This document shows, in pieces, positions 32,108 to 34,723 of a DNA stretch of 41,758 bases (position 1 is its first letter; the number at the start of each line of letters is the position of its first letter). Both the position numbers and the translations under genes were made by a program. This stretch comes from Sedimentisphaerales bacterium (lineage in GTDB: Bacteria > Planctomycetota > Phycisphaerae > Sedimentisphaerales > Anaerobacaceae), in contig JAFGRL010000074.1 in NCBI GenBank assembly GCA_016935195.1, forward strand, positions 1-41,758. The letters run 5' to 3'. The notes beneath the pieces were generated by a model. It did no database searches and had not been told where the DNA came from. It worked only from the letters and a program-made list of their open reading frames with translations.

Positions 32108-33196
32108 TTACCTTCGCAGAACATTTAATGAATTAGACTTCGGACACTGACGAGTTAGTATTTCACAGCCGCTGTCGGTAACCAGAATGTCATCTTCTAT
32201 TCGAACACCAATTTTTTTATGTATGTAAACTCCTGGCTCGATAGTAATAATCTGGCCGGTCTTTAGCCTGCCCTCGGCTTTGGGTGAAATCATCGGCAAT
32301 TCATGTACCTCCAATCCCAGCCCGTGTCCTGTTCCATGGCCATACACCGGCAAATTGGAATCTTTAATAACTGCTCTGGCAGCTTCATCGATTTGTCTAA
32401 TATCTACACCAGCTTTAACCTTACCTATAGCTGCTGCCTGGGCAAGTTCGGCCGTTCTATAAATTCTTTTGAAACGATTTGTTACTGTGCCTGTCGAAAA
32501 GCATCGTGTGATATCACAGCAATAACCTTGAAACCTCACACCAAAGTCGATAAGGATTGTGTCAGCCTTTCTAAGTTTGCGCAGACCAGGCTGATAATGA
32601 GGGTATGATGCACTGCCTCCAAAAGCAACAATGGTATCAAAACTTATCCGGCCGCCAAGCCTGCGTATTTCGAGCTCAAGAATACCGGCAAGTTCACTCT
32701 CGGTAACGCCCGTCCTTATTTTCTTAATGGTCTGATTAAAGGCCTTTGCCGCAATTTTCGCTGCGCCTCTGACAGCAGCAACTTCTTCGGCCCCTTTGCA
32801 ACTGCGCAATCGTTCAACAATACCCGAAACACCTCTTACCGACACATCAAGATGCTTTCGCAATGCCCTATAATCTTTCAGGCTGATACTGCTCTCTACC
32901 TCCACTTTACTGATAGACTTTAGCTGGAGCATCAATTTACCAACAGCTTCAACCATCGGCCTTTTTCGCTCTATAAGCTTACAATCAGGACATTCGCCGC
33001 GTGCCTGCTCAATGTATCTGCTGTCGGTAATAAGATACACCCTGTTTTTTGAGACCACCGCCCAGCTATCATCGCCCAAAAAGCCTGTTGTATAGGTTAC
33101 ATTGGCAGGTCTGGCCAGGATAAGACAGTTTACCTTCCTCTTGGCCATCTGTGCCCGTAGCGCCCTAAGGCGTTTTTGTATTGCTTCTTTTTTCAT
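32108..33196 (-). CDS. Xaa-Pro aminopeptidase family protein (M24)
   Basis: The 362-residue protein has the creatinase-like N-terminal domain (about 1-125) and a pita-bread metallopeptidase domain. All five metal ligands are visible: the two Asp in IDFGVRFQGYCCDITR, His in GHGTGHGLGLEVHE, Glu in ITIEPGVY and Glu in VRIEDDILV. It should remove N-terminal residues preceding proline or cleave X-Pro dipeptides in the cytoplasm. The size and domain layout fit the PepQ/YpdF group more than the 440-residue E. coli PepP. It is monocistronic, with its own promoter upstream. Confidence 0.9.
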   Translation of the reverse strand: MKKEAIQKRLRALRAQMAKRKVNCLILARPANVTYTTGFLGDDSWAVVSKNRVYLITDSRYIEQARGECPDCKLIERKRPMVEAVGKLMLQLKSISKVEVESSISLKDYRALRKHLDVSVRGVSGIVERLRSCKGAEEVAAVRGAAKIAAKAFNQTIKKIRTGVTESELAGILELEIRRLGGRISFDTIVAFGGSASYPHYQPGLRKLRKADTILIDFGVRFQGYCCDITRCFSTGTVTNRFKRIYRTAELAQAAAIGKVKAGVDIRQIDEAARAVIKDSNLPVYGHGTGHGLGLEVHELPMISPKAEGRLKTGQIITIEPGVYIHKKIGVRIEDDILVTDSGCEILTRQCPKSNSLNVLRR

Positions 33197-33249: not shown

Positions 33250-33286
33250 CTTTCAGAAAAAAATAAAGTATTTTTATCCCAACTGT

Positions 33287-33315
33287 TTGGCTGTTTTTAC
33301 TCTGTTTCTTATACT
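33287..33315 (+). promoter_or_regulatory. Promoter of the candidate RNA gene
   Basis: TTGGCT (33287-33292), 17-base spacer, TATACT (33310-33315). It points at the GC-rich block that ends in the terminator at 33432-33455, and has no plausible protein gene between. Confidence 0.55.
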
Positions 33316-33321
33316 TTTATT

Positions 33322-33455
33322 GGAAAAGAACTGGCTGAGGGGGAAACCGAAGACGACACCGCCGACCTTTGAAGTGGCTGCTCGCAGAATGGCTTTAGCC
33401 GGCGAAATGGCCACTGCAACTTACCTAAAAGGACGGCGACTGCCGTCTTTTTTTT
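33322..33455 (+). ncRNA. Candidate structured non-coding RNA, about 134 nt
   Basis: A GC-rich block in an AT-rich 348-base gap is bounded by a promoter and a perfect intrinsic terminator. Its core folds into a long stem: TTG/AAGTGGC (33369-33378) pairs with GCCACT/CAA (33410-33419), enclosing GGC-TTTA-GCC (33391-33400) and a CTG/CAG mini-hairpin. CGCCGACCTTT (33360-33370) can also pair with AAAGGACGGCG (33428-33438), 10 of 11 positions, and would break the terminator stem. That mutually exclusive fold is typical of riboswitch or attenuator RNAs. It does not match any RNA class I know. A 107-codon frame crosses it but has no plausible start or composition. Confidence 0.5.
33432..33455 (+). terminator. 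Rho-independent terminator of the candidate RNA
   Basis: GACGGC (33432-33437), loop GACT, GCCGTC (33442-33447), then eight T (33448-33455). It is a near-ideal plus-strand terminator, lying between the candidate RNA and the rhomboid gene. Confidence 0.85.
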
Positions 33456-33460
33456 ATATC

Positions 33461-33489
33461 TTGCTGAGTCTTGCATTTCTCATTAAAAT
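33461..33489 (+). promoter_or_regulatory. Promoter for the rhomboid gene
   Basis: TTGCTG (33461-33466), 17-base spacer, TAAAAT (33484-33489), starting just 6 bases after the terminator T-run. It suggests that the rhomboid gene does not depend on read-through from the RNA. Confidence 0.45.
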
Positions 33490-33544: not shown

Positions 33545-34723
33545 ATGATACTGCCCATTCGCACAAATATCAGACCTCGACGGACACCTTATGCTAACTA
33601 CGCCCTGATAATAATAAATGTAATCATCTTTCTCTTCACATTCTTACCACATGTCAATCCCTACACGGGTGCTCTCGAACCGCTTCGTCCCGCTGCCAGG
33701 AAGTTTATGCTTAACCCGCAAAACATACAGCTTTTTCAACTTGTAAGCTATGCCTTTCTGCACGGCGGAATCTGGCACATCATCGGTAATATGTACTTTC
33801 TCTACATCTTTGGCAGTAATGTAAATGATAAGCTCGGCCACATTGGCTACGTATGCTTTTATTTGGCCGGGGCCATTGCAAGCGGCTTAGGCCATACATT
33901 AATGAACAACATTCCTGTCCTCGGTGCCAGCGGCGCCGTTGCAGCCGTAACAGGTGCATATCTGGCTTTGTTCCCGCAGACGTTAATAACTGTTTTTTAC
34001 TGGTTTTTTATCTTTGGAACTATGGATATTCCCGCCCTGTACCTTATTGTCTTTAAGATGATTTTCATTGATAACATAATTGCCCGATATGTTCCCAATG
34101 ATGTTGCTTTTGATGCCCACCTCGCAGGCTATGCATTTGGAATAGCCGCCTCGCTTGTCCTGCTTGCGACGGGCCTGCTCTCGGCCAACAGCTTTGATTT
34201 ATGGGCTATGATAAAACAGTGGAATCGCAGGCGGCGTTATCGCGATACCGTCTCGACAGGCTACGATCCTTTTACTGCTGCTCAGGCCAAGCACATAAAA
34301 GTGAAGGAAGTTAAAAAAACTGATAAACAGCGACAACATGATGAAAAAATCCGGCAGCTTCGACATCAGATTTCACAGCGCTGTGCCCAACACAATCTGC
34401 CGGCAGCAGCCCAGCTCTATCTGGAACTTATCGACATCGACACAACCCAGATTCTGCCTCGCCAATACTTGCTGGATATCGCCAATCAGCTCGCCAGCGA
34501 AAACAGACACCCCGAAGCCGCCCAGGCATATGAGGATTTCATCTCTCACTACGGCAACTACGAATATATCGAGCAGGTCCAGCTAATGTTAGGCATAATC
34601 TACTCTCGTTACCTGCAGCAGGCAGAGCCGGCCATAAAGCACCTAAAGGCCGCAGCAGGAAAACTCTCCGACCCTGCTCAGCTAAAGATGTGCAGCGACG
34701 AACTCACAGTCCTCCGGCAATAA
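33545..34723 (+). CDS. Rhomboid-family intramembrane serine protease with TPR-like tail
   Basis: A 392-residue membrane protein. Residues about 18-215 form six or so helices with the rhomboid marks: HGGIWHIIGNMYFL (73-86), catalytic Ser129 in GASGA and catalytic His192 in AHLAGYAFG. It should cleave substrate transmembrane helices in the inner membrane. After the last helix comes a basic linker (RRRRYRD) and a helical, TPR-like domain (about 265-392), with repeats such as NLPAAAQLYLELI and HPEAAQAYEDFISHY, probably cytoplasmic and used to bind partners. No strong ribosome site is visible before the ATG. Function of the tail is unknown. Confidence 0.9.
   Translation: MILPIRTNIRPRRTPYANYALIIINVIIFLFTFLPHVNPYTGALEPLRPAARKFMLNPQNIQLFQLVSYAFLHGGIWHIIGNMYFLYIFGSNVNDKLGHIGYVCFYLAGAIASGLGHTLMNNIPVLGASGAVAAVTGAYLALFPQTLITVFYWFFIFGTMDIPALYLIVFKMIFIDNIIARYVPNDVAFDAHLAGYAFGIAASLVLLATGLLSANSFDLWAMIKQWNRRRRYRDTVSTGYDPFTAAQAKHIKVKEVKKTDKQRQHDEKIRQLRHQISQRCAQHNLPAAAQLYLELIDIDTTQILPRQYLLDIANQLASENRHPEAAQAYEDFISHYGNYEYIEQVQLMLGIIYSRYLQQAEPAIKHLKAAAGKLSDPAQLKMCSDELTVLRQ

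Follow-up and report, generated by a model that had tools for sequence, protein, structure and literature searches.

Between two protein-coding genes in the DNA of a Sedimentisphaerales bacterium lies a GC-rich block (33287-33455) with a promoter and a terminator of its own, and the question raised by this locus is whether the block is a control element of the gene downstream or an RNA gene in its own right. A sequence-only reading had seen in it an on/off switch of the kind known from transcription-attenuating riboswitches, with a stand-alone regulatory RNA as the alternative. The window analysed here is the whole stretch of 41,758 nucleotides (contig JAFGRL010000074.1), to which coordinates refer unless another contig is named. 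Its features at this locus, with the candidate RNA named RNA1, are as follows.

32108-33196, minus strand: M24 (prolidase-type) peptidase gene, the divergent upstream neighbour (PF00557, E = 4e-63; PF01321, E = 3e-20)
33257-33275, plus strand: A/T element AAAAAAATAAAGTATTTTT, directly 5′ of the RNA1 promoter (AAAAAATAAAGTCTTTTTT in relatives)
33287-33315, plus strand: RNA1 promoter, sigma70-like, TTGGCT-17-TATACT, 9 of 12 consensus positions
33316-33455, plus strand: RNA1 small RNA gene, found with a covariance model built without the window, its end placed at the T run
33333-33348, plus strand: conserved G-rich 5′ head GGCTGAGGGGGAAACC (GGCUGGGGGGGAAACC in relatives)
33349-33423, plus strand: centre unlike that of any relative, the family core GAUGUUUUCCGCAGGGGAGAAAAAC being absent and a lineage-specific hairpin standing in its place
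33360-33370, plus strand: CGCCGACCTTT, candidate anti-terminator strand, complementary at 10 of 11 positions to AAAGGACGGCG at 33428-33438
33369-33378/33410-33419, plus strand: the lineage-specific hairpin, 9 of 10 positions paired, as read from the sequence
33427-33455, plus strand: intrinsic terminator AAAAGGACGGCGACTGCCGTCTTTTTTTT, stem 33427-33452 followed by the T run
33461-33489, plus strand: rhomboid promoter TTGCTG-17-TAAAAT, as read from the sequence (TTGTC-N17-TACAAT in relatives)
33545-34723, plus strand: rhomboid-family membrane protease gene (PF01694, E = 2.9e-26)

The non-coding block measures 140 nt, with the start of RNA1 estimated near 33322, and a gap of 89 nt separates its end from the rhomboid gene, which is read in the same direction. 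Most of what had been described here was borne out: the block has its own promoter and a strong terminator, and both the core stem and the pairing of 33360-33370 with the terminator arm exist. The scanned region held three promoter-like sites where 1.2 would be expected, and the RNA1 promoter is convincing mainly because relatives keep it (TTTGGC..TATATT/TATACT). The separate promoter proposed for the rhomboid gene is likewise kept, in relatives with and without RNA1. The A/T element was present in most family loci examined, including those without RNA1, and may act as an UP element. Segment GAAGACGACACCGCCGACCTTT at 33349-33370 resembles the entire terminator hairpin (about 17 of 22 positions) and is possibly a decayed second copy of it; a clearly duplicated terminator was seen in G013 (L051). 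The RNA had been called undescribed, and a search of the block against Rfam agreed, with no matches at the gathering threshold and only chance-level ones at a permissive threshold. A conserved small peptide (ATG TTT TCC GCA ...) was considered and rejected, as stops and length vary and second codon positions are substituted freely, as judged by eye. RNA1 is not 6S RNA, for it does not match RF00013 and a canonical 6S RNA lies elsewhere in the genome (C170, 60 bits).

BLAST matches were found in just 4 of 60 relatives, confined to the promoter plus head or to the terminator. Because these were so few and partial, regions upstream of the rhomboid gene, which has homologues in 143 of the 161 genomes of the order Sedimentisphaerales, were gathered across that order. 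A covariance model, R1, was built from 23 relatives with the window sequence excluded. Its match to the block scored 39.7 bits (E = 5.2e-10 for the window, E = 3.5e-8 genome-wide) and is the only strong copy in this genome. Taken as a whole, the block is clearly conserved. Of the family's 89 genomes, 48 had a strong match (E ≤ 1e-4), one copy in each; 44 of these 48 place RNA1 on the strand of the rhomboid gene and 53-274 nt ahead of it, and in the remaining 4 the two are on different contigs. All genomes compared are drafts or MAGs, and the strands and start sites of the RNAs were deduced. Judged from this conservation, the block is a real, previously unlisted RNA gene conserved in one planctomycete family.

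A typical RNA1 locus runs from the A/T element through a TTTGGC..TATATT promoter, the head GGCUGGGGGGGAAACC, the core GAUGUUUUCCGCANGGGAGAAAAAC and a terminator (GGACGGC..GCCGUCC-U7) to the TTGTC-N17-TACAAT promoter of the rhomboid gene. The core, GAUGUUUUCCGCAGGGGAGAAAAAC, is its most conserved stretch. At six loci (L012, L015, L021, L024, L036, L045) strong extra hairpins are inserted between head and core. RNA1 has been lost from genus g13 while the rhomboid promoter has been kept; the deletion there and in G020 is clean (L009, L016, L018, L027, L028, L020), with the A/T element AAAAAATAAAG..TTTTTT and the rhomboid promoter remaining. In G096 RNA1 adjoins a pectate-lyase-like gene, and there is no rhomboid gene downstream.

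To judge the riboswitch reading, in which CGCCGACCTTT would capture the 5′ arm of the terminator and so allow read-through into the rhomboid gene, the fold of RNA1 was examined for signs of selection. The full transcript was more stable than its shuffles (z = -2.2). Without the terminator z fell to +0.05, and the terminator is therefore the sole exceptionally stable structure. In relatives, 94% of terminator cells are paired, with changes on both sides. When helices were tested against a null that preserved the tree and the changes in each column, the terminator (p = 0.001) and the hairpin just 5′ of it (p = 0.006) were significant and a third helix weakly so (p = 0.014); the other RNA1 helices tested were not. 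An APC-corrected, tree-simulated covariation scan of RNA1 returned no significant pairs, the terminator included, and must for that reason be low in power. Predicted folds of the body vary between members, and none is conserved beyond the terminator.

The anti-terminator fared differently from the terminator. In the window its pairing is locally unusual (p = 0.01), and the minimum-energy fold of the full transcript includes it. Among 43 members, however, unusual complementarity to the terminator 5′ arm was seen in only 4 at p < 0.05, about the number expected by chance; of the two alternative stems in which covariation had been sought, the terminator thus bears the mark of selection and the anti-terminator is not conserved. 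Nor is there a conserved aptamer-like fold, the body without its terminator folding like shuffled sequence. The rhomboid gene has, judged from its sequence, a conserved promoter of its own between the terminator and the gene; RNA1 occurs without a rhomboid gene downstream (G096), and the gene and its promoter persist where RNA1 has been deleted (g13). The riboswitch reading appears largely refuted by this comparison, and we regard it as very improbable. With body folds that vary and an anti-terminator that is not conserved, RNA1 resembles a stand-alone small RNA whose conserved features are linear motifs. Its survival apart from the rhomboid gene in G096 and its deletion in g13 argue in the same direction, as do its own promoter and terminator, so that the alternative offered by the sequence-only reading is the one that stood.

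The core GAUGUUUUCCGCAGGGGAGAAAAAC was followed up, and this led to a second small RNA. When the family genomes were scanned for near-complements of this core, one site recurred besides RNA1 itself, CCCTCCGGAAAACATC, in most genomes; the other matches were scattered singles only. This site belongs to RNA2, which lies often, though not always, directly after secA. It consists of two conserved promoter-like boxes, TAAAGT-N15-GCCGATAA, a short A-rich leader, the core UUUUCUCCCCUCCGGAAAACA and a covarying terminator. The core, 21 nt long and invariant across the order, resembles an anti-Shine-Dalgarno sequence. A model of RNA2 found it in 192 of the 397 genomes of the class Phycisphaerae in 1-5 copies, up to 5 in some families, and almost never outside the class in a phylum-wide sample; it has no Rfam match. 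In other orders the core reads CUUCUUUCCCCUCCGGAAAGCACC, and the terminator arm varies while CCCCUCCGG is constant. Examples of RNA2 loci are L241, L254, L242, L245 and L330-L346. The window genome holds one copy, found by the RNA2 model search, which has an odd base in the otherwise invariant terminator arm (GGAAAATATC):

C138:13782-13858, plus strand: RNA2 of the window genome

The flagellar sigma28 promoter has the consensus TAAAGTTT-N11-GCCGATAA. In the order studied the RNA2 boxes resemble such a promoter with a spacer 2 bases longer, and a FliA-type sigma factor is encoded in the window genome. About 60-70 nt 5′ of the TAAAGT box, many genomes (L233, L240, L276-L314) share a conserved sequence, roughly GCGTAAN(2-5)TTATAGRAC, which could serve to bind an activator or as a divergent promoter. 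The RNA2 locus is not an rRNA leader, as a boxA-like sequence (CTCTTTAAC) might suggest, for no rRNA or tRNA lies nearby. Outside the family, a search of the order with R1 gave a single match below 1e-4 (G126), and this was the antisense strand of RNA2; a search across the class left the picture unchanged.

Reverse-complemented, the RNA1 core matches the core of RNA2, UUUUCUCCCCUCCGGAAAACA, and runs on into the 5′ arm of the terminator there; the match covers about 24 nt and contains one conserved mismatch. Like the two families and the synteny of RNA1, this complementarity was computed directly from the genomes. For 28 of 34 genomes, the duplex computed between RNA1 and that genome's own RNA2 core had a better energy than dinucleotide shuffles at p ≤ 0.05, and for 23 this held at p ≤ 0.01; the tests were run per genome, and the genomes are related. 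The pairing was not significant in the window genome and 5 others of the 34 examined. Extended pairings reached -48 kcal/mol. The base opposite the invariant hinge C of RNA2 was C in 25, T in 6 and A in 2 of 33 RNA1 cores, and never G, which indicates that the RNA1 core was not newly copied from the opposite strand of RNA2. The 5′ head carries a second, weaker RNA2-complementary site in some relatives, and in part of genus g6 (L050, L054) the head replaces the core as the RNA2 site. When cognate and non-cognate RNA1-RNA2 pairs were compared across 18 genera, cognate pairs were not significantly better (962 of 5000 permutations). The complementarity is hence a property of conserved cores, with coevolution not demonstrated; co-variation with RNA1 has little scope where the RNA2 core is invariant. 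Upstream of the rhomboid gene, the sister family f7 has a different conserved RNA, with the pyrimidine-rich motif AAUCUCCUCUCCUGUCUUUUCCUUGCAYGGAYGC and a terminator (L092, L095, L103, L105, L106, L108, L113, L060, L077, L090), and this RNA has no complementarity to RNA2.

These data suggest that RNA1 is a stand-alone, trans-acting small RNA and, in typical members, probably an antisense sponge of RNA2. In favour of the sponge, the complement of the core recurs only as RNA2 and the pairing beats shuffles in most genomes. What follows on transcription, on the direction and consequence of pairing and on the mRNAs targeted by RNA2 is inferred. RNA1, of about 135 nt, would start at its own sigma70-type promoter and stop at its intrinsic terminator. 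RNA2, of about 80 nt and found class-wide, would expose a C-rich UUUUCUCCCCUCC directly before its terminator hairpin, a sequence that looks made to cover Shine-Dalgarno sequences. The RNA1 core GAUGUUUUCCGCAGGGGAGAAAAAC would pair along UUUUCUCCCCUCC and invade the terminator of RNA2 at its 5′ arm (GGAAAACAUC), and RNA2 would thereby be kept from its mRNAs or sent to decay. A leader with GGAGGGGAG would be a candidate for repression by RNA2, relieved by RNA1. Against the sponge stand the non-significant pairing in the window genome (p = 0.44), the 5 other genomes that fail and the want of a cognate advantage.

The last of these points also favours a reading in which RNA1 base-pairs with mRNAs and its complementarity to RNA2 is a by-product, either of the same Shine-Dalgarno-like sequences or of ancestry shared with the antisense strand of RNA2. 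The RNA1 core does resemble an mRNA site (GGGGAGAAAA), and RNA1 and RNA2 are separate transcription units. However, the 24-nt complementarity reaches into the RNA2 terminator arm, beyond what mimicry of an mRNA would give, and RNA2 is the only recurrent near-complement across the family; we consider this reading unlikely. The lack of a conserved RNA1 fold beyond the terminator also counts against the sponge, as does the possibility that CsrA binds the GGA motifs instead. RNA1 would then be a protein-binding RNA of the CsrB/RsmZ type, and G-rich motifs with GGGGA do occur in both conserved RNA1 stretches, with CsrA encoded by 136 of the order's 161 genomes and present three times in the window genome. 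Yet ANGGA is not conserved in hairpin loops, one motif is lost in the window copy, and CsrA is equally common where RNA1 has been lost. Protein binding of this kind seems improbable, and a CsrA sponge was rejected, CsrA being nearly universal in the order and not tracking RNA1.

The antisense sponge of RNA2 remains the preferred reading for the family, and the copy in the window requires separate treatment. It is a divergent family member, in which promoter, head and terminator have been kept and the core has been replaced by the lineage-specific hairpin. A search for TTTTCCGNAGGGGAG with up to 2 mismatches gave no match at the window locus, and the family core GAUGUUUUCCGCANGGGAGAAAA is absent from the window RNA1. 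Pairing of this RNA with the core of its own RNA2 gave the p of 0.44 cited above, and p = 0.09 when a longer RNA2 5′ end was included. With the core lost and the pairing not significant, sponge function is a claim about the family that does not extend to this genome, where the function would have been degraded or replaced. Quite possibly, at somewhat under even confidence, RNA1 is here a decaying or rewired copy whose functional core has gone, which is compatible with a sponge at the level of the family. The missing core, a score at the weak end of the family (39.7 bits against up to 130.7), the pairing result and the altered arm of its own RNA2 all point that way; the intact promoter, head and terminator argue against it, as does a CAGAAU segment that forms pairs with the 5′-terminal AUUCUG of its own RNA2.

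A wider scheme can be put forward more tentatively. Phycisphaerae may use RNA2, with its class-wide, near-invariant C-rich anti-Shine-Dalgarno core and, in the order studied, its sigma28-like boxes, as a global post-transcriptional regulator; one family may have evolved a rhomboid-adjacent sponge that invades the RNA2 terminator with a conserved hinge mismatch, and this sponge may have been disarmed or rewired in the window lineage. If true, comparative genomics alone would have revealed a regulator that spans the class, its targeting core essentially invariant, together with an antagonist peculiar to one family, and RNA-based control of translation in planctomycetes would become directly testable, through RNA1-RNA2 chimeras and de-repressed mRNAs. 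The locus also illustrates that a riboswitch-like picture drawn from a single sequence can dissolve on comparison with relatives.

A literature search found no base-pairing small RNAs described in Planctomycetota and no counterpart of RNA1-RNA2. With transcription-attenuating riboswitches (the cis-regulatory class of Rfam) RNA1 shares an intrinsic terminator about 90 nt upstream of a same-strand gene; unlike them, it has no Rfam match and no conserved aptamer or anti-terminator, and a separate promoter serves the gene. Like 6S RNA (RF00013) it is single-copy, stand-alone and of similar size, but it does not match that model. The small RNA RoxS has a C-rich region of anti-Shine-Dalgarno type. 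In Bacillus subtilis RoxS is sequestered by RosA, as was shown experimentally (PMC8216469). RosA resembles RNA1 in being a stand-alone small RNA whose small-RNA partner bears a C-rich region; it belongs to a different phylum and was established by experiment, whereas RNA1 comes from sequence comparison. In Caulobacter crescentus, the separately encoded sponge CrfA pairs with the anti-Shine-Dalgarno 10-mer core of the sibling small RNAs SisA-D and neutralises them (PMC12559287). Both there and, as proposed, in RNA1-RNA2, a separately encoded RNA acts on the conserved anti-Shine-Dalgarno core of another small RNA. RNA1-RNA2 differs in belonging to Planctomycetota rather than Alphaproteobacteria, in its longer complementarity into the terminator arm, in its conserved hinge mismatch, in being known from genome sequence alone and in having a window copy without the core; the likeness proposed to CrfA is one of mode of action.
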